From assembly GCA_030524745.1 (NCBI GenBank), contig JAUNGC010000005.1, positions 1 through 64,000 of the forward strand: a stretch of DNA of 64,000 nucleotides, in the 5' to 3' direction. The stretch comes from Eubacteriales bacterium (GTDB lineage: Bacteria; Bacillota; Clostridia; Lachnospirales; Lachnospiraceae). How positions within the stretch are numbered: position 1 is the first letter of the stretch; each line of letters begins with the position of its first letter. The notes beneath the pieces are model-generated. The model searched no databases. It was not told the origin of the DNA and was given only the letters and a program-made list of their open reading frames with translations. The position numbers and the translations under genes were made by a program. Of the stretch, positions 45,851 to 63,882 are shown piece after piece.

Positions 45851-45890
45851 TTGTATATTATTAATCAAATTGTTATAATGTGTTAACAAC
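45851..45890 (+). promoter_or_regulatory. Promoter and candidate LacI operator of glycan operon 1
   Basis: TTGTAT (45851-45856) and TATAAT (45874-45879) are 17 bases apart. Directly behind the -10 box lies GTTAACAA (45882-45889), the same half-site as in the perfect palindrome at 53648. Together with TTGTTATA (45870-45877) it forms an imperfect palindrome spanning the -10 box and the start site. Confidence 0.7.
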
Positions 45891-45905
45891 GACAGAGGGT
45901 CTCCA

Positions 45906-46007
45906 ATGCTTTTTTGGGGGCCCTTCGTGGCCGCTGATAAAAGCGCAGAGCGACGGCCTGCTCATGCGGCGGATGTTGCGGCCGCAAACGACAAGGCCGC
46001 AGTGTAA
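45906..46007 (+). CDS. Possible 33-residue leader ORF
   Basis: An open frame of 33 codons in the 5' leader of the operon, with AGAGGG six bases before its ATG, ending 26 bases before the next gene. The product is alanine-rich and similar to nothing I know. The leader also holds a GAGGG...CCCTTC hairpin that overlaps its start. It may be chance. Confidence 0.3.
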   Translation: MLFWGPFVAADKSAERRPAHAADVAAANDKAAV

Positions 46008-46033
46008 AGAGGCGTTTGAGAAAGGATGGGGAG

Positions 46034-48436
46034 ATGAAAACGGTATCTTTGCAGAGGAAGGAAATATTAGAGTATTACAGGAGTGCCATGCCATATTGTG
46101 ATAAGACGGATGTGCCGCAAAAGGTACTGGAGGCTTACGCAGAGCACGCTCTTTTTTTACGTGAGCAGGTGGAATGGTGCAGAGAACTGCCGGAAGATGT
46201 TTTTCTGGAGAACGTGGCGGCTTACCGGATCAACAGCGAGAGGATTGAGGATTGCCGCCGTTTCTTCTATGAGATGGTGATGCCGCTTCTGGAAGGGCTG
46301 TCTTTAAAGGAAGCGATTCTGAAGGTGAATCTCTGGTGTGCGGCCAACGCCACTTATCATCAGGCGGATTTTCGGACTGCCAATGCGATGACTGTATACA
46401 AAAGCGGCTTTGGGCGCTGCGGGGAGGAAAGTACCTTTGCAGTGACGGTTTTTCGCAGCGTGGGTATCGCTGCCAGACAGGTGTATGCGCCGCTGTGGTC
46501 TCATTGTGACGACAATCATGCCTGGGTGGAAGTGTATTGTGACGGACGCTGGCAGTATCTTGGCGCCTGCGAGCCGGAGCCGGTGCTGAACAGAGGATGG
46601 TTTGATCTGCCGGCCTCCAAAGCGATGCTGGTGCATGCGAGAAGCTTCGGCGTTTTGGAAGAGCAGAAGGATGTGATCGCCCGCAACGGATGCGTTACCT
46701 ATTATAATGTGACGGAGCATTATGCGAAAACCGCCGACGTGACGGTCACGGTGAAGAAGGCTTCCGGAGAACTTGTGTGCGGCGTGTGGGTGAATTTGGA
46801 AGTGTTAAATTACGCCCATTTCGGAAAAATTGCCACGTTACGGACCGATGGCGACGGGAAGGTTTTTGCCCGTCTGGGAATCGGCAGCGTGCGGATTAGC
46901 TGTATGCTGGAAGGCGGGTTTTTCTCCTGCCTGTTAAAGATTGAAGAAAACGGAGAACTGGAAGCGCTTCTTGCGCCTGTCTGCCGTGATTTGTGGACGG
47001 AACAAAAGTTTATGGCTCCCGCGGGGGGTGTGGGAGACATAGAGGACGCGCAGCCGGAGGATTTCGTCGCTTTTCAGCAGGAAATTGAACGGGCAAAGGC
47101 CAAGCGGGAAGAGCGGATTTCTTCCTATTACGATGCGGCGCGTGCGCAGCGTTTCCCTAAGGCGCAGGAACTGCTGCGCGCGGCAGGCGGGAATTTCGAA
47201 GAAGTGATCCGGTTTCTGGAAACGGACGGGAATCCATACCGGCTGAAAATGTTGAAGAGTCTGACCCAGAAGGATTATTACGATCTGAAGGCGGAGGTGC
47301 TGGAAGAGCATTTGGCGTGCACGCTGCGTTACGCCGGCAGGGCGGAAGTGCCGGAAGAAATATTTGTGGACTGTCTGTTAAATCCGAGACTGGAATTTGA
47401 AGAACTCAGTTGCTGGCGCAAAGAGATCCGGGAACTTCTGGGAGACCGGGAGGCGGAGTTTGGGTCCGACCCGGAAAAAATCTGGCGGCAGTTATGCGTC
47501 CCCATAGAGGAGCCAAAAGAGGACGCTTACGACACGCTGCGGATGCGTCCGCTGGCTGTCTTACAGGGCGGCAGGGGCAGCCGGGCGGATCAGAAAAATC
47601 TGTTTCTGGCCGTGGCGAGAACCTATGGCATTCCGGCGCGCTTAAATCCGGTGACAAAAGAGGCGGAGTATTACCGGGACGGCGCTTTTTATCCGGCTGA
47701 TACTTCAGGTGGGGAGCCGGAGAAAAAGAGCAGGATTGTGCTTTTGGCAAACGGGGAAAAGAACTGGACCTATCTGACGGACTGGAGCATGGAATGTCTG
47801 GAAAAGAGCGGATACCGGCTGCTGGATCTGCACAGAGAGGAGTGGAGTTCGGACCGCCTCGTTGTGGAAGCGAAGCCGGGAGAGTACCGGATCACTACCT
47901 CGATCCGTCTGATAAACGGCGATCAGTTGGAGACGGAGTTATTCTTTACGCTCGGACCGGAAGAAAAGACGGTGCCTCTCAGACGGCACAGCGCATATAA
48001 GGACGCCGATATGGGCGCAGCTTTGCCGGAGACGGAAGTGCGGACCGACAACGGAACCGTGACGTTAAACGCTCTGCGGAACGGACGGCGCGGCATTTAT
48101 GTCTGGATCCGGGAAGGAGAAGAACCGACCGAGCATATACTGAACGAAATGCTGGAGCGGATTTCCGACGTGAAGAACTGCCAGGAACGGATCTTTTTGC
48201 TCAGCGAAAAGCCGCCGAAGACTGCCGGAACCTTAAAACGCCTGATGGAGGCGGTTCCCGACGTGAAATTTTATCTTGTGGACAGCTTTGAAGACGCGCG
48301 GCGGGCGGCGGCGGCCATGGGCGCGGAGACGAAGAAATATCCGCTGGCGTTGGTGGCGAATGAAGAGGGAAAAGGCATCTATGTGACCTGCGGCTACAAC
48401 GTGGGGGCTGTGGCCCAGATGCTGATGAGAATCTAG
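46034..48436 (+). CDS. Intracellular transglutaminase-like (possibly PNGase-like) protein
   Basis: An 800-residue protein without signal peptide. Residues about 90-205 form a transglutaminase-fold core: Cys129 in GFGRCGEES, His162 in DDNHAWVEVY, and then LGACEPEPVLNRGWF where papain-like enzymes usually have the third residue as Asp (here Gly177, with Glu180 nearby). The tail of this segment recalls the peptide:N-glycanase (PNGase) branch. A second, degenerate core seems present around 520-560 (TYGIPARLNP), then beta domains, and a C-terminal thioredoxin-like domain (about 680-800) lacking a CxxC. The ATG at 46034 has AAAGGA seven bases upstream. First gene of an operon with GH18, CBM9-like, GH29 and an aminopeptidase, so a role in deglycosylating or cutting glycopeptides is plausible. 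Activity is unproven. Confidence 0.75.
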   Translation: MKTVSLQRKEILEYYRSAMPYCDKTDVPQKVLEAYAEHALFLREQVEWCRELPEDVFLENVAAYRINSERIEDCRRFFYEMVMPLLEGLSLKEAILKVNLWCAANATYHQADFRTANAMTVYKSGFGRCGEESTFAVTVFRSVGIAARQVYAPLWSHCDDNHAWVEVYCDGRWQYLGACEPEPVLNRGWFDLPASKAMLVHARSFGVLEEQKDVIARNGCVTYYNVTEHYAKTADVTVTVKKASGELVCGVWVNLEVLNYAHFGKIATLRTDGDGKVFARLGIGSVRISCMLEGGFFSCLLKIEENGELEALLAPVCRDLWTEQKFMAPAGGVGDIEDAQPEDFVAFQQEIERAKAKREERISSYYDAARAQRFPKAQELLRAAGGNFEEVIRFLETDGNPYRLKMLKSLTQKDYYDLKAEVLEEHLACTLRYAGRAEVPEEIFVDCLLNPRLEFEELSCWRKEIRELLGDREAEFGSDPEKIWRQLCVPIEEPKEDAYDTLRMRPLAVLQGGRGSRADQKNLFLAVARTYGIPARLNPVTKEAEYYRDGAFYPADTSGGEPEKKSRIVLLANGEKNWTYLTDWSMECLEKSGYRLLDLHREEWSSDRLVVEAKPGEYRITTSIRLINGDQLETELFFTLGPEEKTVPLRRHSAYKDADMGAALPETEVRTDNGTVTLNALRNGRRGIYVWIREGEEPTEHILNEMLERISDVKNCQERIFLLSEKPPKTAGTLKRLMEAVPDVKFYLVDSFEDARRAAAAMGAETKKYPLALVANEEGKGIYVTCGYNVGAVAQMLMRI

Positions 48437-48484
48437 CAGTTTGCAGACAGGGAGGAAAGTGCAGTATTTTGCACGAATGGAAAA

Positions 48485-49501
48485 ATGGGAAAACTCATTG
48501 GATATGTGGGGACGAAAGAAATTAATGACATGATGGAAGAAGACATCAAAGCGATGGACGTCGTCAATATTGCGTTCGGCCGCATTGCGGACGGAAGGGC
48601 GGTATGGTCTCATCCGGAATGCAAGGAAGGGATCGCGCGAATCCGCCGGATCAATCCGGAACAGAAAATTCTCCTTTCCGTCGGCGGCTGGGGAGCAGGC
48701 GGTTTTTCGGAAGCCGCACGCACGCCGGAAGGAAGAGCGCAGTTTGCCGCGACAGCGATGTCGATTGTGAAGGAGTATGGGCTGGACGGCATCGACATCG
48801 ACTGGGAATATCCCTGCTTTACCACGGCGGGGATCGGAGCCTGCAAAGCGGATAAGGAAAATTATACGCTGTTTTTAAAGGCGATCCGGGAGACGATGGA
48901 AGAGGAAGAGAAGGGCCGTTATATGCTGACGATTGCAGCGGGCGGCGACAGCTACTTCGTGAAAAATACGCAGATGGATCTGGTACAGGAATATCTGGAT
49001 TATGTGCAGATCATGACCTATGATCTGCGGGGCGGATTCCAGACGCTGACCGGCCATCATACCAACCTTTATTCCTATCAGACGGACTTGTTCGATGCAA
49101 GCGCCGACAAGGCGGTCCGGGCCTTTCATGAGGCGGGAGTGCCCCGCGAAAAAATTGTGATCGGCGCAGCCTTTTACTGCAGGGAATGGAAAGGCGTGGA
49201 GGATGTGAATCACGGATTGTGCCAGCAGGCCAAAACGACGGGAACGATCACCCATCATTACGGAGAGTTGGCGGAAAATTACATCAATAAAAACGGTTAT
49301 GTGAGGTACTGGGATGAAGAGGCAAAGGCGCCTTATCTGTTTAACGGCAGCAATTTTATCAGTTATGATGACGAAGAATCCCTTTCCTGCAAAATCGCAT
49401 ACTTAAAAGAACAGAAGCTTTCAGGCATCATGTTCTGGGCCTATGACGGCGAAAAAACGCATACGCTGGTGACGCATATAAGAAAAGAACTGGATCAGTG
49501 A
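48485..49501 (+). CDS. Intracellular GH18 family glycosidase
   Basis: A 338-residue single-domain GH18 TIM barrel. The catalytic motif DGIDIDWE (101-108) is intact, with Glu108 as acid/base, and SVGGWG (65-70) precedes it as in chitinases. Members cleave chitin or, in the endo-beta-N-acetylglucosaminidase branch, the GlcNAc-GlcNAc core of N-glycans. There is no signal peptide or carbohydrate-binding module, so the substrate must be imported. It lies 48 bases after the transglutaminase-like gene. A chitobiose-type core substrate would fit the neighbours; I infer this from context. Confidence 0.9.
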   Translation: MGKLIGYVGTKEINDMMEEDIKAMDVVNIAFGRIADGRAVWSHPECKEGIARIRRINPEQKILLSVGGWGAGGFSEAARTPEGRAQFAATAMSIVKEYGLDGIDIDWEYPCFTTAGIGACKADKENYTLFLKAIRETMEEEEKGRYMLTIAAGGDSYFVKNTQMDLVQEYLDYVQIMTYDLRGGFQTLTGHHTNLYSYQTDLFDASADKAVRAFHEAGVPREKIVIGAAFYCREWKGVEDVNHGLCQQAKTTGTITHHYGELAENYINKNGYVRYWDEEAKAPYLFNGSNFISYDDEESLSCKIAYLKEQKLSGIMFWAYDGEKTHTLVTHIRKELDQ

Positions 49502-49520
49502 GAGAGGGGAGGAATGTGTG

Positions 49521-50537
49521 ATGAACTACAGAATACCGAAACCGGATATCGATTTTAACCCTCCGGTATATCAGTGCAGACGCGCAAAGAAGCCCTTTGT
49601 TCTGGATGGCAATCTGGATAAGGAATTCTGGCAGGATGCGCCTTTTACGGACGACTTTGTGGATATTGAAGGGGAAAAACGGGAAACGCCCCGTTTCCGG
49701 ACCAGAGCCAAAATGCTGTGGGATGACGAGAACCTTTACGTGGGAGCGGTGCTGGAAGGCGATGAGATCTGGGGCCATCAGACAGAGCGCGACTGCGTCA
49801 TTTTCCAGGACAATGACTTCGAGATTTTTATTGATCCGGATTCCGATACGCATCAGTATTATGAATATGAAATGAATGCGAAAAACACGGTGTGGGATCT
49901 GCTTTTGACCAAGACCTACAGAGACGGCGGCAAGCCGGTGAACGGTTTTGATATGCACGGCATGCGCAGCGCGGTACATATCGATGGAAAGTTAAACAAT
50001 CCTTCCGCTGACAACAGACGGTGGATGGTGGAAGTGGTGATTCCTTTTTCTGCGGTCAACGAGTGCGCTAAGGAATTGAGAAGCCCGCTTGCAGGCGAGT
50101 ATTACCGGGTGAATTTTTCCCGCGTTCAGTGGAAGGTGGATGTAAAGGATAACGCTTATGTAAAACGCTGCGACGAAAAGGGAAAAGTGCTGCCGGAGGA
50201 CAACTGGGTATGGGCGCCCACCGGCATTGTCAACATTCATTATCCGGAACTGTGGGGATTTGTTTTCTTTACGGAAGGGGAAGAAACCTATGAAATCCCC
50301 CAGGATGAGAAGGACAAGTGGGAACTGAGACGGTTATATTATAACGCGAACGGTTATTATGACGAGCACGGCAGATTTCCGGAAAACATCGGGGAGATCA
50401 ATCAGGACTATCCTTATACGATCCGGCCTCTCCTTCAGACCACAAAGCATACCTTTGAAATTACCTGCGACAGCAAAGACGGAAAAAGGGAACTGGCGAT
50501 TCAGGGAGACGGAAGAACTTACGTATATCAAAAATAG
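49521..50537 (+). CDS. CBM9-like carbohydrate-binding protein, cytoplasmic
   Basis: A 338-residue protein built around a carbohydrate-binding family 9-like fold (VLDGNLDKEFWQDAPFTDDF, ENLYVGAVLEGDEIWG, DNDFEIFIDPDSDTHQYYEY, WMVEVVIPFSAV, RVNFSRVQWKV). This fold occurs in periplasmic and secreted sugar-binding proteins, but here there is no signal peptide. It may bind glycan fragments inside the cell or assist an enzyme of the operon. The ATG at 49521 follows GGGAGG by eight bases; a GTG at 49518 is in frame. It is 19 bases behind the GH18 gene and 14 bases before GH29. Confidence 0.82.
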   Translation: MNYRIPKPDIDFNPPVYQCRRAKKPFVLDGNLDKEFWQDAPFTDDFVDIEGEKRETPRFRTRAKMLWDDENLYVGAVLEGDEIWGHQTERDCVIFQDNDFEIFIDPDSDTHQYYEYEMNAKNTVWDLLLTKTYRDGGKPVNGFDMHGMRSAVHIDGKLNNPSADNRRWMVEVVIPFSAVNECAKELRSPLAGEYYRVNFSRVQWKVDVKDNAYVKRCDEKGKVLPEDNWVWAPTGIVNIHYPELWGFVFFTEGEETYEIPQDEKDKWELRRLYYNANGYYDEHGRFPENIGEINQDYPYTIRPLLQTTKHTFEITCDSKDGKRELAIQGDGRTYVYQK

Positions 50538-50551
50538 CGGGGTGAGAAGCG

Positions 50552-51985
50552 ATGAGTGAAGAATGGAAGAAAGAGACGCAGACAGCCGAAACGGCAGATA
50601 CGGACGCGGCAAAAGAACAGGAAGCCGCTCCGGAAGATATGGTGCAAAACGGGGTGCATAATTACAGTACGGAAGAGAGTTATGTGTGGCCGACCGATCC
50701 TGCAGTGCTAAAAAAGCTGGAATGGTTTCAGGATCAGAAGCTGGGGCTGATGATGCACTGGGGCGCATACAGTCAGCTTGGCATTGTGGAATCCTGGGCG
50801 CTGTCCGATGCGGACGCCGACTGGTCAAGAACCGGGATCGACTGGGAGGTGACCGGAGAGGAATTCAAAAAGCAGTATTTCGATTTGAACAAGACCTTCA
50901 ATCCCATCCGGTTTGAACCGGAAAAATGGGCCGATATCGCAAAAGAAGCGGGAACGAAATATCTGCTTTTTACGACGAAGCATCACGACGGGTTTTGCAT
51001 GTGGGATACCAAATATTCCGATTATAAGGTGACGGCGCCGGATTGTCCGTTTCACACAAACCGCTATGCGGATATATGCGCTCATCTGTTTGAATCCTTC
51101 CGGAAGCGGGAACTGGGCGTGATCGCCTATTTTTCCAAAGCCGACTGGCATGTGGACAGCTATTGGAGCGAGAACTATGAGAGAGGAAGCTATCAGCACA
51201 GGGGGCCTTCCTATAAGCCTTCCGAATATCCCGAAGAATGGGAGCGCTTTGTGGAGTTCACCCAGAATCAGATCATGGAACTGGGGAGCCGCTATGGCCG
51301 GCTGGACGGAATGTGGTTTGACGCCGGATGGGTGTGCGAGCATAACGGACAGGATATCCGGCTGGGCGAAGTGATCGAACGGGTACGGAAATTCCAGCCG
51401 GGCATGCTCTGCGCGGACCGGACGATCGGCGGCCCTTATGAGAATTATGTGACGCCTGAACAGTGTGTGCCCGATAAGCCGTTGCGCATCCCGTGGGAAA
51501 GCTGCATCACGCTGGGAACCTCTTTTTCCTTCGCATACGAGGATACTTATAAAAGCCCGAGAGAAGTGATCTGTCTGCTGGTGGATATCGTGGTCAAGGG
51601 CGGCAATCTGGCGATCAATGTGGGTCCCCAGCCAAACGGCTGTCTGCCCAAAGGCGCGGTGGAGAGCCTGCGCGGCATGGGAAAATGGCTGAAGGTATAC
51701 GGAGACGCGATCTATGGGACGCGGGTGTGCGCGCCTTATAAGAAAGACGGAATCGGTTTTACCAAAAAAGGAGACGTCGTGTACGCCATCCAGACCTTTG
51801 CCGATGAAAACGAAAAAGTGTCTTCGGAGGTATGGATTCCCTACGAGGGCGAAGCGTCCAGGATCACAGCGCTGGATACGAAGGAAACGCTGGACTTTGA
51901 GCGCAGAGACGGTGGTTATCTGGTGAAGGCAAAGGCGTATGAAGAGAAGAAGGCGCCGATCGGAAGAGTATTCTGTCTGGAATGA
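50552..51985 (+). CDS. GH29 alpha-L-fucosidase
   Basis: A 477-residue alpha-L-fucosidase that removes fucose from glycans. The barrel starts at residue 50 (LEWFQDQKLGLMMHWG). The HH pair of KHHDGFCMWD (144-150) binds substrate and the nucleophile is Asp257 in DGMWFDAGW. A short C-terminal beta domain follows. A 35-residue acidic, Ala/Glu-rich N-terminal extension is unusual and looks disordered. There is no signal peptide, so fucosylated oligosaccharides or glycopeptides must be imported. It is the fourth gene of the operon. Confidence 0.92.
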   Translation: MSEEWKKETQTAETADTDAAKEQEAAPEDMVQNGVHNYSTEESYVWPTDPAVLKKLEWFQDQKLGLMMHWGAYSQLGIVESWALSDADADWSRTGIDWEVTGEEFKKQYFDLNKTFNPIRFEPEKWADIAKEAGTKYLLFTTKHHDGFCMWDTKYSDYKVTAPDCPFHTNRYADICAHLFESFRKRELGVIAYFSKADWHVDSYWSENYERGSYQHRGPSYKPSEYPEEWERFVEFTQNQIMELGSRYGRLDGMWFDAGWVCEHNGQDIRLGEVIERVRKFQPGMLCADRTIGGPYENYVTPEQCVPDKPLRIPWESCITLGTSFSFAYEDTYKSPREVICLLVDIVVKGGNLAINVGPQPNGCLPKGAVESLRGMGKWLKVYGDAIYGTRVCAPYKKDGIGFTKKGDVVYAIQTFADENEKVSSEVWIPYEGEASRITALDTKETLDFERRDGGYLVKAKAYEEKKAPIGRVFCLE

Positions 51986-51998
51986 GGAGGAAGGTAAC

Positions 51999-53420
51999 AT
52001 GCCGGAAATCATTTTAAAAGAAGAATTTTTAAACGGCGTTTCCGTGCGCTTCTTCACGGAAGAAGAAGCAAAAACGCTGCATATGGGAAAGCTTTTTGAA
52101 GGAAAATGGCTGGAAAGCCGACTTATGCCCGGCGCAGACGGGATGTTCACGGTTTATCTGGGGCTGGGAGAGGGCGTCGGCGATCTGGCGGAAGTGAAAA
52201 ACGTTTATGCAAAGGCCGTGAAGGAGGCCAGACCGTATACGGAAACGATGACGCTGAACCTGCTGACAGCGGAAAAATGGACGGGCAAAAGCTTCGATAC
52301 AAAAAGAGCGCTGGGCGCGGCGCTGGAAGGCATGCTTTTGGCCTGCTACAAGCCCATGAAATATAAATCGGAGACAGAAGAGGAGAAAGCCCTCACAATC
52401 ACGCTGGGGGGCGCGGCGCCCACGCCGGAGCATGAAAAGCTTCTGGAGGAAAAGACCGCTCTTGCCCGGGGAATTTATTTTGCCAGGGATGCGGTGAACA
52501 AGCCATCCAATCTGCTACGGCCCATGGAATTTGCCAGAGAAGTGAAAGAATTATTTGCAGGGCTTCCTGCGGAAATAGAAGTATATGACAGACAGGCGCT
52601 GGAAGAAATGCACATGGAGGCGCTCCTGACGGTGGGAAGGGGCAGCAGCTTCGATCCCTGCCTGACGGTGATCCGGTATCTGCCGGATAAAAACGGGCCT
52701 GTTACCGCGCTGGTGGGAAAAGGCGTGACCGTGGATACCGGCGGCTATTGTGTGAAGCCCTCCGGCTCCATGGCGGGCATTAAAGGCGATATGGCGGGCG
52801 CGGCAGGCGTGATCGCGGCGATGTACGCCCTTGTGAAAACCGGCGGCAGAAAGAATACGGTGGCGGTGCTTCCGATGTGCGAAAACCGCATTTCTTCCGA
52901 CGCCATGCTGCCCGGCGACGTTATTTCTTCCTATGGAGGAAAGACGATCGAAATTCTGAATACGGATGCGGAGGGGCGGCTGATTCTGGCGGACGCGGTT
53001 TCCTTTGCGGTGAAGCATGAGAACGCGCAGCGGGTGCTGGATATCGCAACGCTGACAGGTGCGGCGGCGATTACCTTCGGCAAATGTATGGCTCCCGTGC
53101 TGGCGGACGGAGAAGAATTTTATGAGGAGTTTGTAGAAGCGCAGGAACGTTCCGGGGAGCGGTATGTGCGGCTTCCTTTCTTCAAAGAGCATGAGAAGAT
53201 GATTGAAAGCAGGTGGGCGGATGTAAAAAACGTGGGCGGAGAAACCTGCGGCAGCATTACGGCCGGACTTTTCATCCGCTTTTTCGCAGAAGGAAGACAG
53301 TGGCTGCATCTGGATATCGCAGGCACGGCCGAAGCGCAAAATCCGGAGCCGGTGTGTGAATATCATGTCTACGGCGGTACCGGGGCGGGCGCGGCGACAA
53401 TGTATGAACTGTGCAAATGA
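51999..53420 (+). CDS. M17 leucyl aminopeptidase
   Basis: A 473-residue cytosolic metallo-aminopeptidase that trims N-terminal residues from peptides. The two-metal site is visible: Lys241 and Asp246 (KGVTVDTGGY), Asp264 (IKGDMAGA), Asp323 and Glu325 with Arg327 (NTDAEGRL). The N-terminal domain is divergent. GGAGGAAGG (51986-51994) selects the ATG at 51999. A peptidase as the last gene of a glycosidase operon suggests that the imported substrate includes peptides, for example N-glycopeptides. A strong terminator follows. Confidence 0.93.
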   Translation: MPEIILKEEFLNGVSVRFFTEEEAKTLHMGKLFEGKWLESRLMPGADGMFTVYLGLGEGVGDLAEVKNVYAKAVKEARPYTETMTLNLLTAEKWTGKSFDTKRALGAALEGMLLACYKPMKYKSETEEEKALTITLGGAAPTPEHEKLLEEKTALARGIYFARDAVNKPSNLLRPMEFAREVKELFAGLPAEIEVYDRQALEEMHMEALLTVGRGSSFDPCLTVIRYLPDKNGPVTALVGKGVTVDTGGYCVKPSGSMAGIKGDMAGAAGVIAAMYALVKTGGRKNTVAVLPMCENRISSDAMLPGDVISSYGGKTIEILNTDAEGRLILADAVSFAVKHENAQRVLDIATLTGAAAITFGKCMAPVLADGEEFYEEFVEAQERSGERYVRLPFFKEHEKMIESRWADVKNVGGETCGSITAGLFIRFFAEGRQWLHLDIAGTAEAQNPEPVCEYHVYGGTGAGAATMYELCK

Positions 53421-53483: not shown

Positions 53484-53535
53484 ACGTCAAAAAAGCGGTT
53501 CTGGAAAAAAACAGAATCGCTTTTTTGACGTTTTG
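53484..53535 (+). terminator. Strong terminator of glycan operon 1
   Basis: A 20-base arm (53484-53503) pairs with 53512-53531 with a single G-U pair, with long A and T runs, then TTTT. It lies between the aminopeptidase and the ABC operon. GTTAAC-like sequence also occurs at 53445-53451. Confidence 0.92.
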
Positions 53536-53647: not shown

Positions 53648-53666
53648 TTGTTAACGGTGTTAACAA
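53648..53666. promoter_or_regulatory. Perfect palindromic operator before the ABC operon
   Basis: TTGTTAACGGTGTTAACAA is an exact palindrome with eight-base arms and a three-base centre, 37 bases before the TTG start. A further ATGTTAAT follows at 53674. A TATGATAAT stretch (53623-53631) may hold the -10 box. This is the best match to the site presumed for the LacI regulator at 57506. The rest of the 53421-53702 gap is a terminator and AT-rich DNA. Confidence 0.8.
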
Positions 53667-55770: not shown

Positions 55771-57399
55771 ATGAAGAAAAAGTTAGTGGCTTGCGTTTTA
55801 CTGACTGCAATGGCAGTGACGACACTGGCCGGCTGCGGCAGTTCCGGCGGCAACACTGCTTCTGCTGAAAAGGAGGAGTATGTACCCGGAGAGGTGGATG
55901 AAAACGGTAAGGTGGACGGCCTGATGTATGCGGAGGGGCTTCCTTTGGTGGATGAAGGCGAATACAGCTTTTCCATTTTCTGCGATGATTCCAGTTCCAC
56001 AGGGGAATTCTACATGCTGGATGTATTCAAGGAACAGACGAACGTTGACGTTGACCTTGAGATCTATGCATATGAGAACGCGACTGAAAAATTGAACCTG
56101 GCACTGAATGCCGGCACCTATGCGGATGTGATTGGCGGCTGGACGCTGTCCGATGCGATGATCCTGACCTATGGCGTGGAGCAGGGCGTATTCATTCCGC
56201 TGGAAGATATTTTTGAGGAATACTGCCCCAACATTTCCGCAATTCTGGATCTGGAAGGCGTAAGAGAGAAAATGACGGCGCCTGACGGCCATATCTACAC
56301 GATCCCGTATGTGTGCGGCGATACCACAGTTGGCTACAGCCCGTACATCAACAGCCGCTGGCTGGAGAACGTGGGTATGGAAATGCCCACCACCACCGAT
56401 GAATTTGAAGCGGTTCTGAAGGCGTTCAAGGAGCAGGATGCGAACGGCAATGGAGATCCTACGGATGAAATCCCGTTCTCCACGGACCCGAACAACAAGC
56501 ATCTGGAAGCGATGGCCGGCTATTTTGGACTGCCGATGAACAAGAACGGCCTGACCGTTCTGGACAGCGGCGAGACCGCATTTGCGGCGACCAGCGATAC
56601 TTACAGAGAGTTCTTAAGCTGGTTCAACAAGCTGTATGAGCAGGGACTGGTTGACTCCGAAATCTTCACGCAGGATTCCGCTACCTGGGAAGGTAAGGGA
56701 AATCAGGATATGTACGGTGTGTCCATTGCTTATGGCTCCAGCGAATATGCAGGCTATGTGGTGGGAACCGAGAAGAGCGAATATGATCCGCTTCCCGTTC
56801 TGAATGCGGACAACGGCGGCGTATGGCTGAGAGATACGCCTGGTAACTCCGTATACAGAACGCAGGCTGTCATTACCGACAATGCAGAACATCCTGAAAT
56901 TATCGCGCGCTGGTTCGACAATGCGTTTGAACTTGAAAACGGTATTGGCTGTTCCATCGGACCTGTAGGCGTTGTTACCTTCAAGGAAGGCGACGGCTAT
57001 CGTCAGATCGATTCCTCCACTCTGGATGCTGATATGCAGGAGAAGGTGAGTTGGAGCAATCTGTGGCCGCAGTCCCTGCCGAAATACACCCCTATCGGAT
57101 TTAAGACCATTCAGGACAATCCGCTGTATGATGAGAAGAAGGCTGTGGAAGAGTTCTACGAGCCCAATCTGACGGAAGGCGTAATTGATACTCCCTGGAT
57201 TGAGATGGACAGCGTGGAAATCTATTCCGAATATGCTTCCGCAATTCAGGATTACTTCGATCAGCAGCAGGCACTGTTCATTTCTGGTGAACAGGATGTG
57301 GATGACGACGCGGTCTGGGAAGCTTACAAGGATGGCTTTGAAGGTCTCGGACTGTCTGAATACCTTGACATCAAGGGAATCACGACTGTAGTTGAATAA
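55771..57399 (+). CDS. Extracellular solute-binding lipoprotein (glycan uptake)
   Basis: A 542-residue lipoprotein with the signal peptide MKKKLVACVLLTAMAVTTL and lipobox LAGC. The binding protein is of the large LplA/YtcQ class (YSPYINSRWLENVGMEMPTT, PFSTDPNNKHLEAMAGYFG). It captures the substrate of the ABC transporter encoded just upstream. The 166-base gap after the permease gene holds no clear promoter or hairpin. AAGGAGGA lies about ten bases before the ATG. A strong terminator follows. Confidence 0.94.
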   Translation: MKKKLVACVLLTAMAVTTLAGCGSSGGNTASAEKEEYVPGEVDENGKVDGLMYAEGLPLVDEGEYSFSIFCDDSSSTGEFYMLDVFKEQTNVDVDLEIYAYENATEKLNLALNAGTYADVIGGWTLSDAMILTYGVEQGVFIPLEDIFEEYCPNISAILDLEGVREKMTAPDGHIYTIPYVCGDTTVGYSPYINSRWLENVGMEMPTTTDEFEAVLKAFKEQDANGNGDPTDEIPFSTDPNNKHLEAMAGYFGLPMNKNGLTVLDSGETAFAATSDTYREFLSWFNKLYEQGLVDSEIFTQDSATWEGKGNQDMYGVSIAYGSSEYAGYVVGTEKSEYDPLPVLNADNGGVWLRDTPGNSVYRTQAVITDNAEHPEIIARWFDNAFELENGIGCSIGPVGVVTFKEGDGYRQIDSSTLDADMQEKVSWSNLWPQSLPKYTPIGFKTIQDNPLYDEKKAVEEFYEPNLTEGVIDTPWIEMDSVEIYSEYASAIQDYFDQQQALFISGEQDVDDDAVWEAYKDGFEGLGLSEYLDIKGITTVVE

Positions 57400-57455: not shown

Positions 57456-57497
57456 AAAAAGAGCAGGTTACGGTTTCGGCTGTAACCTGCTCTTTTT
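57456..57497. terminator. Bidirectional terminator
   Basis: AAAAAGAGCAGGTTAC (57456-57471) and GTAACCTGCTCTTTTT (57482-57497) form a perfect 16-pair stem between the solute-binding gene and the convergent LacI gene. Confidence 0.95.
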
Positions 57498-57505
57498 ATG
57501 AAAAA

Positions 57506-58525
57506 TTACCGTCTAGGACAAGGAGACGGATGGATGATATTCGAAATAATGTAAATGACTTCATGGCAGCCCACGGGATTTTCCAGCCGGAAAATGAATT
57601 GCCTTGCCAGTCTCTTGCCGAGTACAGTGGTATCCACCAGAACAGTGGCGGACATGTTGGAATGGCTGTCATGTTCCGCGGTTCCGTCGTATCCGGTAAT
57701 GATAACGTCGTCAGGAACAGAGATTCCGTGACTTGCGAAATAAGTATTTACCACATGGGCGACATAGTCGTTGACACAGATAAACACTTCCGGCATTGTC
57801 TGTAAGTTGTCCAGAAATGAGAAAACGTCTTCTTCATAATGATGGTTTGCCTGTGAAAGGAGCATGCAGCAGGATGGATTGATCTCCATATGATGTTCCG
57901 AAAGCGCGGTTATGAATCCTTCATAACGCAGCGAGTTTGTCTTGGCGTAGTTGATATCGCCGATAAAGCCAAAACGTCTATAGCCAAGTTCGATGAAGTC
58001 GCTGACCAGCCGCCGGATCGTTTCCGCTCCTTCCAGAAGAAACAGATCGCCGCGAATCTCCCATACAGGAATGGCGGGAACGATATCCAGAAAGATCTTT
58101 GGAATATCGAGGTCATTGAGCATTTTGGTCAGCTGCAGATCATAGACGTTTAAAATGATACAGCCGGAAGTGGTGCCGTCGCTCAATGAGCCCGGAAGCG
58201 TGTACCCGTCCGAGTAAAAGGTGGGAAGATATGTGTATATCAGGTCGATATTATTTTTGCTTAACTCTTTGGCGATCTGATGAATAATATTCATCCAGAA
58301 AATGGAGGTATCCGGCCGGGATACGACCAGTGAAACGATATTGTGCTTCGAGGCGGCCGGCGGGGAATCGGCAGTATACTTATTGTAGCCCATTTCCTTT
58401 GCTTTTTGAAGGATCTGCTCCCGCAATTCCTGAGAAACCCCGTCGCGGTTGTTGAACGCCTTCCAGACGGTAACTCTGGATGTCTGTAGAGCGTCCGCTA
58501 TGTCCTGCATGGTGATTTTAGCCAT
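57506..58525 (-). CDS. LacI-family regulator of the glycan locus
   Basis: A 339-residue repressor: N-terminal LacI helix-turn-helix and hinge (ITMQDIADALQTSRVTVWKAFNNRDGVS) followed by a periplasmic-binding-type effector domain (NIVSLVVSRPDTSIFW, RFGFIGDINYAKTNSLRYEGF, DVIITGYDGTAE). It sits between glycan operons 2 and 3 and is divergent from the GH38 gene, so it probably represses all three operons through GTTAAC-containing sites. AGGAGGTA precedes the minus-strand ATG. The inducer is probably a glycan breakdown sugar. Confidence 0.93.
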   Translation of the reverse strand: MAKITMQDIADALQTSRVTVWKAFNNRDGVSQELREQILQKAKEMGYNKYTADSPPAASKHNIVSLVVSRPDTSIFWMNIIHQIAKELSKNNIDLIYTYLPTFYSDGYTLPGSLSDGTTSGCIILNVYDLQLTKMLNDLDIPKIFLDIVPAIPVWEIRGDLFLLEGAETIRRLVSDFIELGYRRFGFIGDINYAKTNSLRYEGFITALSEHHMEINPSCCMLLSQANHHYEEDVFSFLDNLQTMPEVFICVNDYVAHVVNTYFASHGISVPDDVIITGYDGTAEHDSHSNMSATVLVDTTVLGKRLARQFIFRLENPVGCHEVIYIISNIIHPSPCPRR

Positions 58526-58593
58526 AAAAAGTACCTCCTGTACATCCTTAACAATATTATTGCATAAAATGTTAATAAAAACAACAAAAAGGC

Positions 58594-58622
58594 TTGAAAT
58601 GTTAACGATCTTTTGTTAAAAC
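58594..58622 (+). promoter_or_regulatory. Promoter with embedded GTTAAC site before the GH38 gene
   Basis: TTGAAA (58594-58599) and a weak TAAAAC (58617-58622) are 17 bases apart. TGTTAACGATC fills the spacer, with a second GTTAAAAC right behind; further TTAACA and GTTAAT sites lie at 58547-58575 near the LacI start. This fits repression of both divergent genes. Confidence 0.6.
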
Positions 58623-58686
58623 AAAGAAAAAAGATATTGCCCATACGCCGGCACTGGGAACCGGCGGCGGGGAAAGGAACAATAAT

Positions 58687-61600
58687 ATGGATTTCTTGGA
58701 TAAGAGAGTCGGAATTATCTGCGAACAGTTGAAAAAACTGGCGGTAAAACAAAGGAAGCCGATTACGGATTTTTATTTTAAGAAAGGATTTTTCGAACGG
58801 CCGGAGGACGCCGACGCGTCAGAAGAGGTGTGGGAAGTATTTCAGAGCCGGACGATGCACTGGTATGGACCGGACGAACATTATTGGTTTCGTACGGAAT
58901 TGACAGTTCCGGATTCCATGGATGGAAAATCCATGTGGATTCGGGTTCGTACGCAGATCGATGAATGGGATGACGGAAGAAATCCTCAGTTTTTATTGTT
59001 TGTCGACGGAAAAGTGACACAGGGAGTCGATATGAATCACCGGGAGGTGAAGTTATCTTCCTGTGCGAAATCCGGCGAGAAGCTGCAATTGGATCTGCAG
59101 GCCTATACCGGAAATCTGCATGGGGAATTCCGGCTGATTGTCGATCTGTTTGAATTGGACGAAACGATCGCAAAGCTGTACTATGATCTGTGGGTGCCCG
59201 GCCTTGCCTTCCCCAGAATGGATGAAGGGGATAAGGTCAGGAAGGATATGGAGTTTATCTTGAATGAAGCGGTGAATCTGCTGGATCTTCGGAGCCCGTA
59301 TTCCGAAGAGTTCTACCGTTCTGTGGACAGCGCTTCCGCTTATCTGGAAAAGGCACTGTATGAGGAAAAAGCGGGTTATACGGATGTGATCGCAACCTGT
59401 ATCGGGCATACGCATATCGACGTGGCGTGGTGGTGGACGGTGGCGCAGACCCGGGAGAAGGTGGCGAGAAGCTTTTCCACCGTTTTGAAGCTGATGGAGG
59501 AATATCCGAACTATAAATTCATGTCCAGCCAGCCGCAGCTTTATCAGTTTTTGAAGGAACGTTATCCGGAGGTTTATGAACAGATCAAAGAGCGGGTGAA
59601 AGAAGGCCGCTGGGAGCCGGAAGGCGGCATGTGGGTGGAAGCCGACTGCAATCTGACTTCGGGAGAATCTCTGGTGCGTCAGTTCCTGCACGGAAAACGC
59701 TTTTTCAAAGAAGAGTTTGGCCTGGACAACGAAATTTTGTGGCTTCCGGACGTGTTTGGCTATTCCGGCGCGCTGCCCCAGATCATGAAAAAGTCCGGCA
59801 TCAAATATTTTATGACCACAAAGCTGGCATGGAACCAGTTTAATAAGGTTCCCAACGACACGATGCTCTGGCGGGGAATTGACGGAAGCGAAATTCTGAC
59901 CCATCTGATTACGACGCTCGGCATCGGACAGCCTGAAAGCAATTTCTTTACCACCTATAACGGCATGCTTCATCCCGACGCTATCATGGGCGGCTGGAAA
60001 CGTTATCAGAATAAAGATATGAACAATGATATTCTGATCGCCTATGGTTATGGAGACGGCGGCGGAGGCCCTACCAGAGAGATGCTGGAAACCTCCAAAC
60101 GGCTGGAAAAGGGAATCAAGGGCATCCCGAAGGTGCGCCAGGAATTTTCTCATGTCTGGTTTGAGGAACTGGAGGAGCGGGTGAGAAAAGATAAGCGGCT
60201 TGCCGTGTGGGAAGGAGAGTTTTATTTCGAGTACCACAGAGGCACCTACACCTCTATGGCGAGAAACAAACGCGCCAACCGGAAGAGCGAACTGGGGCTG
60301 ATGGATCTGGAACTGTTCTCCGTAATGGCGCAGAATAAAGTTCCTTATCCGAAAGAAGAACTGGACCGGATGTGGAAGACTGTTTTGCTGAACCAGTTCC
60401 ACGATATCCTGCCGGGATCGTCCATCGAGGAAGTGTACGAGGTGACGAAAGCGGAATATGCGCAGCTTCAGGAGCGTCTGGAAGCGCTTACCGAAGAAAG
60501 GATCCGGGCGCTGACGCCCGGCGGAGAGGGCATTACGCTTTATAATACCACCGGATTTGTGCGGGATGACATCGTGAATCTGGGAAACAGCAGCGCAGAA
60601 GCGCTCTGCGATGAAAACGGAACACAATATCCGGTGCAGCAGACTGCTGACGGCGCGATCGCTTATGTCAAAGAACTGCCTGCGAAAGGATACCGTACCT
60701 TTGCGGTGAAAGAAGCCGCAGAACAGGCGTCAAATCCTTTTACCCTTGACCGGAATGTGCTGGAAACGCCATATTACCGGATCCGTGTGGATGAAAACGG
60801 GCTGTTTGAAAGCATTTTTGACAAAGAGTTTGAGCGGGAAGTGATACAGGAAGGGAAGCGCGCAAACCTGTTCCGCATGTATGAAGATAAGCCCATGTGC
60901 TATGACAACTGGGATATCGATATTTATTATACGGAAAAATTCTGGGATGCGGTAAAAGCGGAATGTGTGGAATGGAAAGAACTGGGCCCCGTGAGAGCGG
61001 TGCTCTGCGTGGAACGTAAGATCAGCAATTCCCGAATTTGCCAGGAAATCTGTTTTTATGCCGATGACAGAAGAATCGACTTCCATACATGGGTGGACTG
61101 GAAGGAGCAGCAGCATCTCCTCAAAGTGCATTTCCCGGTGGATGTTCATACGGACGAGGCGACCTTTGACATACAGTTCGGCAATCTGACCCGCAAAACG
61201 CATACCAATACAAGCTGGGATAAGGCCCGGTTTGAAAGCTGCGGACAGAAGTGGATCGATGTATCGGAAGGGCACTACGGCGTGAGTCTGATGAATGACT
61301 GTAAATACGGTCATTCCGTTCATGACGGCGATCTGGGACTGACTTTGATTAAGTCCGGCATAGAGCCGAACCCTGCAGCCGATAAGGAAGAACACATATT
61401 TACCTATTCCCTCTATCCCCATGGAGAAACCTGGCGGGCGGCGCAGACGGTGAAAAAGGCATATTTTATCAATCAGCCCGTATGGATTCAAAAGGGCGGA
61501 GAACCGGGCAGTTCCTTCAGTCTGGCGTCGGTGGACCGTTCCAATGTGGTGATCGAGACGATCAAGGAGGCAGAGGACGGCGACGGCGTGATTCTGCGCC

Positions 61601-61776
61601 TGTATGAATCGGAGAACGCGCGCACAAAAGCGACGCTTACCTTCGGATTTCCGATCAGAAGCGCAGAGGAATGCAATCTGATGGAAGAAAAAGAAGCGGA
61701 CGCAGTATTTGACGAAAGTAAAATCAGCTTTACCATCAAACCTTACGAAATCAAGACCTTCCGCATAAGGTCATAA
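58687..61776 (+). CDS. GH38 alpha-mannosidase
   Basis: A 1029-residue alpha-mannosidase. After a beta-rich N-terminal domain (1-230) comes the catalytic barrel with the Zn2+ ligands His243 and Asp245 in GHTHIDVAW and the nucleophile Asp355 in LPDVFGYSG; a later His in NQFHDILPGSS completes the site. Large C-terminal beta domains follow. Such bacterial enzymes remove alpha-linked mannose from high-mannose N-glycans and related oligosaccharides. There is no signal peptide, so it is cytoplasmic. First gene of glycan operon 3; the LacI gene is divergent. Confidence 0.95.
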   Translation: MDFLDKRVGIICEQLKKLAVKQRKPITDFYFKKGFFERPEDADASEEVWEVFQSRTMHWYGPDEHYWFRTELTVPDSMDGKSMWIRVRTQIDEWDDGRNPQFLLFVDGKVTQGVDMNHREVKLSSCAKSGEKLQLDLQAYTGNLHGEFRLIVDLFELDETIAKLYYDLWVPGLAFPRMDEGDKVRKDMEFILNEAVNLLDLRSPYSEEFYRSVDSASAYLEKALYEEKAGYTDVIATCIGHTHIDVAWWWTVAQTREKVARSFSTVLKLMEEYPNYKFMSSQPQLYQFLKERYPEVYEQIKERVKEGRWEPEGGMWVEADCNLTSGESLVRQFLHGKRFFKEEFGLDNEILWLPDVFGYSGALPQIMKKSGIKYFMTTKLAWNQFNKVPNDTMLWRGIDGSEILTHLITTLGIGQPESNFFTTYNGMLHPDAIMGGWKRYQNKDMNNDILIAYGYGDGGGGPTREMLETSKRLEKGIKGIPKVRQEFSHVWFEELEERVRKDKRLAVWEGEFYFEYHRGTYTSMARNKRANRKSELGLMDLELFSVMAQNKVPYPKEELDRMWKTVLLNQFHDILPGSSIEEVYEVTKAEYAQLQERLEALTEERIRALTPGGEGITLYNTTGFVRDDIVNLGNSSAEALCDENGTQYPVQQTADGAIAYVKELPAKGYRTFAVKEAAEQASNPFTLDRNVLETPYYRIRVDENGLFESIFDKEFEREVIQEGKRANLFRMYEDKPMCYDNWDIDIYYTEKFWDAVKAECVEWKELGPVRAVLCVERKISNSRICQEICFYADDRRIDFHTWVDWKEQQHLLKVHFPVDVHTDEATFDIQFGNLTRKTHTNTSWDKARFESCGQKWIDVSEGHYGVSLMNDCKYGHSVHDGDLGLTLIKSGIEPNPAADKEEHIFTYSLYPHGETWRAAQTVKKAYFINQPVWIQKGGEPGSSFSLASVDRSNVVIETIKEAEDGDGVILRLYESENARTKATLTFGFPIRSAEECNLMEEKEADAVFDESKISFTIKPYEIKTFRIRS

Positions 61777-61790
61777 GGAGAAAAGAACAA

Positions 61791-62951
61791 TTGAGAACGA
61801 TACTGGGCGTGGAAAGAATTGCGGAATACAAAAAACTGTTTCAGGGAAAAAGAATCGGCCTGATCACCAACTTTTCAGGGATTCTTCCCGATTTGACGAT
61901 GGATACCGCAGATGTCTTTTGGAGTAACGGTTTTCATGTGCAAAAGATCTTTACGCCGGAACATGGACTCTATGGTGCAGGCGCAGGAGAAAGTGTGGCG
62001 GACAGCTTTCACCCGCGTTATCACATTCCGGTGATTTCTCTGTACGGCGATCACCGCAAGCCTACGGACGAGGATGTGGAAAATCTGGATCTTCTGGTCT
62101 ATGATATTCAGGATGTGGGGCTCCGTTATTATACGTATCTTTATACCATGTGTTATTCCCTGGATAAAGCAGCCCAAAAGGGGATTCCCTATGTGATTCT
62201 GGACCGCCCGAATCCTCTGGGCGGCCGTCAGATCCGGGGCGCCCGAATCCGTCAGGATTATCACAGCTTTGTGGGAGATTATGAACTGCCGATGCGTTAT
62301 GGCCTGACCATCGGCGAGGCGGCGCACTATTATCTGAAGTATACCGGAACAAAGGCGGATCTCACGGTGATTCCGATGGAGAATTACACCATGGACACCA
62401 CTTTTCCCCGAACCGGGCTTTTGTGGAATGTGCCGTCTCCGGCGCTTCCTGCTTTTGAGAGCGTGTTATGCTATTGCGGCGGCTGTCTGTTTGAGACGGT
62501 CAATGTCAGCGAAGGCCGCGGAAGCGCAAAACCGTTTCAGATGTACGGCGCGCCTTTCATCGATATGGATCGGTTTTACGAGGATGTGAAGGCGCAGTGG
62601 AAGGACGATTCCATTGTGTTCCGCAGAAGAGCCTTTGTACCAAACTGCAGCAAGCATCAGGGAGAAGTCTGCTATGGGCTGGAATTTTTCCCGCTCAGAG
62701 AGGAATGCGATTTCCTTCCGCTGGCGCTTATCATGATGAAAGCGATCTTTGAACGCTACCCTGAGAAGGCGGTATTTTGCGCCTTGCCGGACGGGGAGAG
62801 CGAAAACCGTCTGGCGGTTCTGTACGGCAATGAACTGGCGCTTGCGTATATCAGAGGAAATATAGCCATGAAGGAACTGCAGGAAGCCTGGACGGCGGAA
62901 GACGAAGCGTTTGCGGCGTATGCAAGGGATATCCGGATTTACCGGGATTAA
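61791..62951 (+). CDS. DUF1343 / NamZ-like (GH171) protein
   Basis: A 386-residue protein of the DUF1343 family, whose characterised member NamZ is an exo-beta-N-acetylmuramidase. Typical segments: IGLITNFSG, EHGLYGAGAGESV, LVYDIQDVGLRYYTYLYTM, LDRPNPLGG, and the NVSEGRGSAKPFQMYGAPF loop. NamZ proteins are usually exported; this one has no signal peptide. It starts with a TTG 14 bases after the mannosidase stop, preceded by AAGGAG. It could recycle MurNAc-containing fragments or cleave a GlcNAc-type end of the imported glycans. Confidence 0.88.
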   Translation: MRTILGVERIAEYKKLFQGKRIGLITNFSGILPDLTMDTADVFWSNGFHVQKIFTPEHGLYGAGAGESVADSFHPRYHIPVISLYGDHRKPTDEDVENLDLLVYDIQDVGLRYYTYLYTMCYSLDKAAQKGIPYVILDRPNPLGGRQIRGARIRQDYHSFVGDYELPMRYGLTIGEAAHYYLKYTGTKADLTVIPMENYTMDTTFPRTGLLWNVPSPALPAFESVLCYCGGCLFETVNVSEGRGSAKPFQMYGAPFIDMDRFYEDVKAQWKDDSIVFRRRAFVPNCSKHQGEVCYGLEFFPLREECDFLPLALIMMKAIFERYPEKAVFCALPDGESENRLAVLYGNELALAYIRGNIAMKELQEAWTAEDEAFAAYARDIRIYRD

Positions 62952-62964
62952 GCGGGGAGAGAAT

Positions 62965-63882
62965 ATGTATCGGATCGGGATAGACGGCGGCGGAACGAGA
63001 AGCCGGTTTGCGGTGCTGGAAAACGGAAAAGAGTTGTTCCGGTGCGAAAGCGGCGGGCTGAACTATAACAGCTATGGAGAGAAGGAAATTCTGTCAAATC
63101 TTTTGGCGGCAATGACAGCATTGACAAAAGCAGGATTTAAACCGCAGGATTGTGCGGGAATCGGCGCGGGCGCGGCCGGAATCAGCAATCCGAAGGCGAT
63201 TCCTTTTTTAAAAGGCAGCCTGCGGAAACAGGGATTTTCCTGTCCTATTGTAATTGCTGGCGATCAGGAAGCCGCTCTTGTGGGAGGAATCGGAAAGAAA
63301 GCGGGAATTTTGCTGATTGCCGGAACCGGTTCCATCTGCATGGCGCAGGACGGCAGAGGAAACCGCTTCCGGACCGGCGGTTACGGACATATCATAGATG
63401 ATGCCGGAAGCGCCTATGCGGTGGGAAGGGACATTTTAAATGCGGTAGTGCGGGCGCGGGATGGCAGGGCCAATCCCACCGCATTGGAAGAAAGGGTATT
63501 TGAAACCTTATCCGTTAAAACGATGGAGGAAGTAATCGCCTATATCTATGCTCCGGAACGGAACAAAAAAGATATCGCGGCGCTGGCCTCCATTCTGACC
63601 GATACATTGATTTTGGAGGATGCCGCCGCAGGGCGGATTGCGGCCCATGCCGCAGAAGAACTGACTCTGCTGGTGATTGCAGCGCTGGCGCAAATCAATT
63701 CTTCCGCAGTAAGAACGGAAAATGGACCCGAATGCTTCCCTCTGCTTCTGGAAGGAGGACTGATCCTGAAAAACCGGGAAATCAACCGGATGTTCTGGAG
63801 AATTCTTCAGGAAAAAGAGATACCGGTCTTTCCGGCGCAAAAGGAACATGACGCGGCATACGGCGCGGCGCTGCTGCTTTAA
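62965..63882 (+). CDS. BadF/BadG/BcrA/BcrD-type sugar kinase (GlcNAc kinase-like)
   Basis: A 305-residue ASKHA-fold ATPase of the BadF/BcrA family, which includes eukaryotic and bacterial N-acetylglucosamine kinases. Phosphate loop GIDGGGTRSRFAV, the GAGAAGISN segment, AGTGSICMA and GGYGHIIDDAGSAY are present. It would phosphorylate an amino sugar released by the glycosidases. The ATG at 62965 has GGGGAGAG upstream and lies 13 bases after the previous stop. Last gene of the operon; its stop overlaps the end of the convergent pseudouridine synthase gene. Confidence 0.9.
   Translation: MYRIGIDGGGTRSRFAVLENGKELFRCESGGLNYNSYGEKEILSNLLAAMTALTKAGFKPQDCAGIGAGAAGISNPKAIPFLKGSLRKQGFSCPIVIAGDQEAALVGGIGKKAGILLIAGTGSICMAQDGRGNRFRTGGYGHIIDDAGSAYAVGRDILNAVVRARDGRANPTALEERVFETLSVKTMEEVIAYIYAPERNKKDIAALASILTDTLILEDAAAGRIAAHAAEELTLLVIAALAQINSSAVRTENGPECFPLLLEGGLILKNREINRMFWRILQEKEIPVFPAQKEHDAAYGAALLL

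Follow-up and report, generated by a model that had tools for sequence, protein, structure and literature searches.

What does a bacterium of the Lachnospiraceae take apart with a compact set of glycosidases, peptide-processing enzymes and an importer that appear to share one regulator, and where does it do so? We addressed this question for the locus at 45851–63882 of a 64,000-base stretch of DNA (the window; bases 1–64000 of the 142,613-base contig JAUNGC010000005.1, from a 3.57-Mb genome that is 93% complete). An earlier note had described eleven genes under one presumed LacI regulator; open reading frames (ORFs) and Pfam matches confirmed all eleven as well as the LacI gene. Our analysis suggests that the locus is probably an N-glycan uptake and breakdown unit under one regulator, whose most likely input is small Asn-glycopeptides or glyco-asparagines.

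The genes form four units. On the forward strand, the first encodes a transglutaminase-fold protein (TG; 46034–48436, Transglut_core E 8e-23), a candidate glycoamidase (PNGase-like) or peptidase; a leaderless glycoside hydrolase of family 18 (GH18; 48485–49501, E 3e-71) of the exo-N-acetylglucosaminidase/chitobiase type with the motif DGIDIDWE; a leaderless CBM9-like protein that marks this type of cluster (49521–50537, CBM9_1 E 1.4e-13); a GH29 alpha-L-fucosidase (50552–51985, E 1.1e-83); and a leucyl-aminopeptidase-type M17 peptidase with the motif NTDAEGR (about 51999–53420, Peptidase_M17 E 1.1e-100). The second unit, also forward, encodes an ATP-binding cassette (ABC) importer composed of an LplB-type permease (53703–54656, BPD_transp_1 E 3.6e-15), a YtcP-type permease (54672–55604, BPD_transp_1 E 3.4e-10) and a lipoprotein solute-binding protein (SBP; 55771–57399, SBP_bac_8 E 2.1e-10) whose lipobox was recognized by eye. 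The LacI-family regulator (57506–58525, LacI E 1.4e-6, Peripla_BP_3 E 2.4e-16) stands alone on the reverse strand, followed by a forward unit for a GH38 alpha-mannosidase of the Ams1/cytosolic type (58687–61776; four GH38 domains, N, middle and two C, E 1.3e-24 to 4e-94), a leaderless NamZ-like hydrolase (61791–62951; NamZ_N E 8e-69, NamZ_C E 1.4e-30) and a BadF-type amino-sugar kinase (about 62965–63882; BcrAD_BadFG E 5.7e-32; NCBIfam NagK_SO3507 E 1e-21, under its cut-off). Gaps within units measure 13–48 bases, except for 166 bases before the SBP gene.

Hydropathy over the first 46 residues of the 12 proteins revealed a strongly hydrophobic N-terminal stretch only in the SBP, where LAGC follows it, and in the two permeases; no leader was seen on the locus enzymes by this check. 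This is in agreement with the earlier statement that the enzymes carry no signal peptide, and degradation is very likely intracellular. The claim that the substrate is taken up whole and dismantled in the cytoplasm is supported in its second half. Attachment to peptide at the moment of uptake is plausible only; we give it a slight preference, resting on TG, on M17 and on a GH18 that is intracellular and of the chitobiose-splitting type.

In the pathway that we propose, the feed would be Asn-glycopeptides and glyco-asparagines left by the proteases of other microbes and of the host. The SBP and the LplB- and YtcP-type permeases, recognized from sequence, would import the glycopeptide as their presumed ligand. 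The M17 aminopeptidase would trim the peptide and GH29 would remove fucose, after which TG may detach the glycan from Asn, a step carried out by a glycosylasparaginase in Lactobacillus casei. Alpha-mannose would be removed by GH38, aided by a GH125 encoded elsewhere in the genome, and beta-linked residues by the GH20, GH3 and GH2 beta-mannosidase of a second cluster. GH18 would then split the core of two N-acetylglucosamine (GlcNAc) residues, and the BadF-type kinase would phosphorylate the GlcNAc. An intracellular chitobiose-splitting GH18 is needed only if import keeps both core GlcNAc residues, that is, if no ENGase has cut outside the cell.

The gene-neighbourhood conservation search that had been proposed as a check showed that this cluster type recurs and that its relatives sit beside N-glycan enzymes. 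In Paenibacillus brevis, a GH85 with SLH surface domains lies directly downstream of TG (locus L059; Pfam), and in Niameybacter a GH130 adjoins GH38 (L112; Pfam). The order GH38-GH85-ROK-GH38 (69%)-GH130-LacI (47%) was found in L143 by BLAST with Pfam-named queries, ROK being assigned by Pfam; L154 and L156 hold LacI, GH130 and GH38 (68–69%), the LacI relatives of these three loci lying at 46–47%, and L158 and L159 hold GH85-GH125-GH38 (40–42%; all BLAST). GH125 also occurs near relatives in L132 (Pfam) and L149 (BLAST), GH20 in L033, L095 and L109 (Pfam), with a LacZ-type GH2 in L095, and GH3 in L144, L145 and L147 (Pfam). A GH2 beta-mannosidase and GH20 accompany the same importer and GH18 in L149 and L153, while L146 and L095 share the order GH38-GH2-GH20-GH18-TG and L098 is alike by gene order. 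Between GH2 and GH20 of these loci lies a 392-residue protein without a Pfam match (L095:5467-6642; L146, 97% identical; L098:5439-6614 by position and length). Of the 118 flanking ORFs left unassigned in the 18 core loci, 74 went into the Pfam tally, which shows 25 of 142 families. Characterized GH85 enzymes act exclusively on N-glycans, according to the excerpted text of PMC10154615.

A complementary cluster was detected in the same genome. Since the scheme lacked a beta-mannosidase, we searched for one, and it was found as predicted together with GH125 and GH20: the region G000:C26:29897-39116 encodes GH125-GH3-GH20-[336 aa]-GH2 beta-mannosidase on one strand. The GH2 beta-mannosidase matched at 67% over 845 residues and the GH125 at 47% (BLAST), and the GH3 was assigned from a Pfam scan of its C-terminal part (L142). 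No signal-type start was seen by eye in the four enzymes. The GH38 and GH29 of the locus and the GH125 and GH20 of this cluster place four pneumococcal-type enzymes in one genome. The genome (93% complete) gave no GH85 match at E <= 0.001. Among 299 genomes of the family, 25 exceeded the Pfam cut-off for GH85; 31 of the 35 listed matches were partial and below 32 bits, and the 4 above 220 bits were counted as GH85. The N-glycan target named in the earlier note gains from the GH85, GH125, GH130, GH20 and GH2 beta-mannosidase beside relatives and from the complementary cluster, and we hold it with good confidence.

The association of the locus genes is more than chance (co-occurrence p 7e-11 to 9e-5) across 298 further family genomes that were drawn evenly from a larger group (299 with our own). 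TG was found in 36 of the 299 (35 of 298 without our own) at E <= 1e-10, and the CBM9 gene in nine at E <= 1e-30, all of which hold TG. GH18 occurred in 19 genomes at E <= 1e-50, including 12 at E <= 1e-80; these counts, like that for CBM9, include our own genome. With it excluded, CBM9 co-occurred with TG in 8/8 genomes (p 1.7e-8) and with the close GH18 in 7/8 (p 7e-11). GH18 was found with TG in 9/18 at the search's own cut-off of 1e-50 (p 3.5e-5) and in 9/11 for the closest subtype, E <= 1e-80 (p 7e-8). GH38 relatives of at least 60% identity co-occurred with TG in 7/12 (p 9e-5), and those at the search's own cut-off in 22/54 (p 2e-10). The 1e-80 line for GH18 and the 60% line for GH38 were drawn after viewing the lists. 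GH38 alone is a weak marker, with relatives at E <= 1e-100 in 55 of the 299 genomes including our own.

Scanning GTDB species genomes with the TG alignment returned at least 590 coding stretches related to TG, of which the best 80 were kept as named loci; all counts of neighbours refer to the flanks as fetched. Among these 80, GH18 was present in 14 (one counted from a fusion), CBM9 in 11, GH29 in 37 and M17 in 17. Of the 14 loci with GH18, 11 also have CBM9; none of the 66 others does. We compared 100 TG loci (L033–L132), in which two pairs represent the same locus. The cluster type recurs, rearranged, in records of uncultured Lachnospiraceae, Eisenbergiella, Fusicatenibacter, Clostridium, Paenibacillus, Caldicoprobacter and Niameybacter, and natural fusions join CBM9 to TG in L052 and GH18 to GH29 in L109.

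Many TG loci without GH18 (L057, L063, L071, L072, L077, L078 and others) carry a CutC-like gene directly before TG. In the example L072:6915-12307, Pfam assigns it to the CutC family (PF03932), and most of the other proteins aligned resemble it at 49–68%. M17 and another GH29 frequently lie close by in these loci, and L072 also encodes a DeoR regulator. CutC has been called a copper protein; its place beside TG suggests a part in a sugar-peptide pathway. TG relatives were also found in Bifidobacterium biavatii, B. pullorum and B. miconis (L110, L117, L119), where the flanks, as fetched, contain no relatives of GH18, CBM9 or GH29.

To evaluate whether one regulator could serve the locus, its promoter regions were compared. 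Upstream of the first unit, before TG, lies the operator-like palindrome TTGTTATAATGTGTTAACAA (45870–45889), which contains one GTTAAC, and upstream of the importer genes the perfect palindrome TTGTTAACGGTGTTAACAA (53648–53666). The divergent LacI/GH38 promoter holds a GTTAAC-containing operator-like sequence (58600–58625) consisting of half-sites and an imperfect palindrome only; it does not fit the exact pattern TTGTTAN{5,6}GTTAACAA. This pattern occurs at two places in the 3.57-Mb genome, namely the first two sites, and its backward control gave zero matches. Such confinement to the locus fits one dedicated regulator, presumably the LacI encoded in its middle. All 5 copies of GTTAAC in the window fall within the three promoter regions, and among hexamers with at least 4 window copies it alone has every copy in locus promoters. 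The palindrome was picked after inspecting the promoters, and its p of 1.4e-5 (intergenic bases) is thus indicative only. The three promoters presumably form one regulon, bound by the LacI protein. When one mismatch per half was allowed, 12 of 29 related loci gave some match, mostly loose, so that the operator argument applies chiefly to the genome of the window. In L054 (12758–12777), the palindrome TTGTTAAGCTGTATTAACAA, similar to the operator-like sequence of the window, immediately precedes a gene for 503 residues that is located downstream of TG. Two terminator-like hairpins were seen by eye and are absent from the terminator list: one (GTCAAAAAAGCG...CGCTTTTTTGAC) on the forward strand between M17 and the importer genes (53486–53529), the other, flanked on each side by T/A runs, where the SBP and LacI genes converge (57456–57497).

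The best full-length solved relative of GH18 is 6inx, named 'N-acetylglucosaminidase', with 175 of 327 aligned residues identical (54%), which points to the chitobiose-splitting and not the Endo H type; GH18 reaches only 26.8 bits with the EndoS model and 27.8 bits with that of Endo H. GH38 matched Ams1 best in the PDB (6lz1, E 3e-150) and resembles the Ams1/MAN2C1 type in its four domains, in its nearest solved relatives and in motifs that we take to be those of the active site. Within related clusters, GH29 has relatives at 56–74%, and the LplB-type permease has relatives at 67–80% in several. The NamZ-like protein, presumably of the GH171 type, has no relative in the 100 TG loci (regions as fetched); a NAGK-NamZ pair lies beside an M20 peptidase in G317 (L157), with no N-glycan-type gene recognized nearby. 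NamZ may be an added module. No glycosylasparaginase appeared among the Pfam matches of the locus; no such search was extended to the rest of the genome.

The proposed release of the glycan from Asn depends on TG. We built a TG domain profile from 56 sequences and scored residue conservation over 59 aligned sequences (alignment A2 dropped L091, with 21 further named loci not entered; A3 is without L064, L076 and L100). Residue numbers count from 46037 and rise by one when counted from the ATG at 46034. Against the PDB, the domain profile matched 3isr (1.1e-5), mouse PNGase 2f4m (2.2e-4), yeast Png1 1x3w (6.9e-4) and 3esw (8.7e-4). Only the domain profile was significant, the whole-protein profile reaching the PNGases at E 0.28–0.81; a whole-protein phmmer search of the PDB returned only a small domain, 3e8v. 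TG residues Cys128 and His161, invariant in 59/59, align with yeast Cys-191 and His-218, which an excerpt of PMC2791212 names as catalytic along with Asp-235. These two and Glu130, Arg147, Trp163, Glu165, Trp172, Cys178 and Glu179 are the same residues in the PNGase alignment, and all are invariant in the 59. The H-W-E-W pattern among them is common in other bacterial transglutaminase-like proteins and is therefore not PNGase-specific. Mapped by spacing from the catalytic residue of human NGLY1, which we take to be Cys309, Glu130, Arg147 and Cys178 would correspond to positions 311, 328 and 355. NGLY1 variants are listed at these positions in the part of PMC9102325 consulted. A possible C-terminal thioredoxin-like domain was noted in TG, with profile matches that are not significant (2m72 E 0.065, 2nbs E 0.21); a Caenorhabditis elegans PNGase was reported with thioredoxin activity (PMC2791212, in the same excerpt).

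Several observations weigh against the proposal, beginning with TG itself. Its best domain match, 3isr, is a putative cysteine protease, not a PNGase. The position of the catalytic Asp-235 is occupied by Gly176, invariant in 59/59, with the invariant Glu179 three residues further on, and CxxC zinc-binding motifs number zero in the window TG, while one of the 59 sequences has one upstream of the Cys. Earlier called PNGase-like, TG deserves the term for its fold, Cys and His, and not for the catalytic Asp and CxxC motifs, which are missing. By sequence it falls outside the cytosolic PNGase (Png1/NGLY1) family, although it may work like one. We regard it as a PNGase relative of uncertain chemistry and tentatively prefer a glycoamidase role, since no other locus gene looks able to cut the Asn-GlcNAc bond. 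More tentatively still, the TG family might constitute an unrecognized bacterial cytosolic glycoamidase class that would use Cys-His, and perhaps Glu for Asp, to free N-glycans or GlcNAc from Asn-glycopeptides. The titles and abstract starts listed by searches of open-licence PMC papers yielded no activity for the TG family and no description of the cluster. Furthermore, neither GH18 nor CBM9 lies in the fetched flanks of 66 of the 80 named TG loci, which indicates a wider role of TG, and in L145, L149 and L153 the importer and GH18 occur with no TG within the fetched 20 kb. The best PDB match of the SBP is 5g5z/5g5y, which we take to be FusA, and NgtS entries are not among the 14 listed at E <= 1e-3. 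As the nearest full-length solved relative of GH18 is named an N-acetylglucosaminidase, chito-oligosaccharides stay among its possible substrates. NamZ is without a place in the N-glycan scheme, and the GH130 that we had predicted was not found in the genome. Finally, the second cluster has no operator motif in front of it, so that its co-regulation with the locus is not supported.

Part of this evidence would suit a different substrate, namely free N-glycan that the ENGases or PNGases of neighbours have released outside the cell, in which case TG would be a peptidase or an enzyme for other amides and the importer would be NgtS-like in function. Such import is supported in pneumococcus by the available portion of PMC5215778. 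GH85 stands beside the cluster in L059, there with SLH domains, and beside GH38 relatives in L143, L158 and L159; the TG-less clusters and the protease-like top match of TG are also in line with this explanation. Nevertheless, we consider it unlikely: the window genome shows no GH85, the first unit begins with TG and ends with M17, and TG is fused to the CBM9 protein of the cluster in L052. In addition, ENGase products carry one GlcNAc, so that a chitobiose-splitting GH18 would be unnecessary.

Two further explanations appear very improbable to us. GH18, NamZ and the kinase could act on oligomers of GlcNAc or N-acetylmuramic acid (MurNAc), and M17 and TG on stem peptides, in the salvage of chitin or peptidoglycan fragments. 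The presence of NamZ with a BadF-type kinase, the NAGK-NamZ pair by the M20 peptidase in L157 and the 54% identity of GH18 to 6inx would agree with this. However, the 100 TG loci, as fetched, contain no NamZ, while mannosidases, GH20 and fucosidases recur in them, and we know of no role for GH38 or GH29 in chitin or peptidoglycan. MurNAc salvage from peptidoglycan proceeds through NamZ, MurK and MurQ; the genome gave no full MurQ match, only three sub-cut-off pieces of 53–62 positions, and peptidoglycan salvage, which we had considered for NamZ and the kinase, was therefore set aside. Alternatively, GH38 and the peptidases would fit mannopeptides from fungal or other mannoproteins, with O-mannosyl groups or short alpha-mannan in place of N-glycan cores, whereas GH18 and GH29, together with the GH85, GH130, GH20 and GH2 beta-mannosidase found beside relatives, suggest a fucosylated chitobiose-mannose core. 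GH76 and GH99 were not among the tally families shown or in single scans; neither was searched for in our genome.

The preferred interpretation, N-glycan import followed by intracellular breakdown, can be compared with systems already described. Eukaryotes have a cytosolic route of PNGase, ENGase and MAN2C1/Ams1 and a lysosomal route of GH29, glycosylasparaginase, GH18 chitobiase and GH38. The locus resembles these in its Ams1-type GH38, its TG-fold protein distantly related to PNGase, and the union of GH18 and GH29 in one catabolic set. It differs in being bacterial, import-fed and presumably LacI-regulated, with a TG that lacks the PNGase Asp and CxxC motifs.

Among bacteria, the Streptococcus pneumoniae system consists of EndoD, NgtS-P1-P2 and the CPL with GH20, ROK, GH38, GH125, GH92 and GH29 (PMC5215778, portion available). 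Shared features are the ABC importer, GH38, GH29, GH125 and GH20 (the last two in the second cluster here), a sugar kinase, and import followed by degradation. In contrast, the GH85 EndoD frees the glycan first in S. pneumoniae and our genome has none, the matches listed for the SBP include no NgtS structure, and TG, GH18, M17 and CBM9 do not figure in Table 1 of that paper. The Lactobacillus casei alf-2 cluster for Fuc-GlcNAc-Asn comprises AlfH, AlfC, PepV, AsnA2 and SugK in the excerpt of PMC6960285. Likewise, it combines import of an Asn-linked core remnant with an intracellular fucosidase, a peptidase, an amide-cleaving enzyme and a sugar kinase. It uses an MFS permease instead of an ABC importer, its amide cutter is the glycosylasparaginase AsnA2 where TG may serve here, and the alf-2 genes listed in that excerpt include neither GH18 nor GH38. 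The Bifidobacterium longum operon for high-mannose N-glycans, as summarized in PMC10154615, has three GH38 and a GH125, mannosidases also found here; TG, GH18, M17 and CBM9 are not named in that summary. Intracellular degradation after import is already known in Gram-positives from the related pneumococcus and L. casei systems (PMC5215778, PMC6960285); as far as these portions extend, what is new relative to all three is the TG-CBM9-GH18-M17 set and the absence of GH85. ABC import with intracellular N-glycan degradation is known in kind, and the locus adds to it a candidate new bacterial glycoamidase family.

The locus has a sharp 3' border: past 63882, an RluA-like protein and pot-type transport genes, unrelated to the locus, follow on the opposite strand (named by eye from translations). 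The 5' flank (42120–45612) encodes a LysR regulator on the reverse strand, UbiD, a flavoprotein that we take to be UbiX-like, and a PAC_bac protein (Pfam); this looks like an aryl-acid decarboxylase set. At 626–3952, the window encodes a type I restriction R-subunit-like protein (ResIII, EcoEI_R_C).

If the proposed route is correct, cutting the still-capped core inside the cell would explain how a Lachnospiraceae-type bacterium without GH85 feeds on glycoprotein remnants, and import before cutting would hide the products from competitors. TG is a concrete candidate for a new glycoamidase family and, if it proves to be one, would be a useful tool in glycobiology. Bacteria would then run routes like the cytosolic and lysosomal ones of eukaryotes, combined in one cell and starting from an imported glycopeptide.

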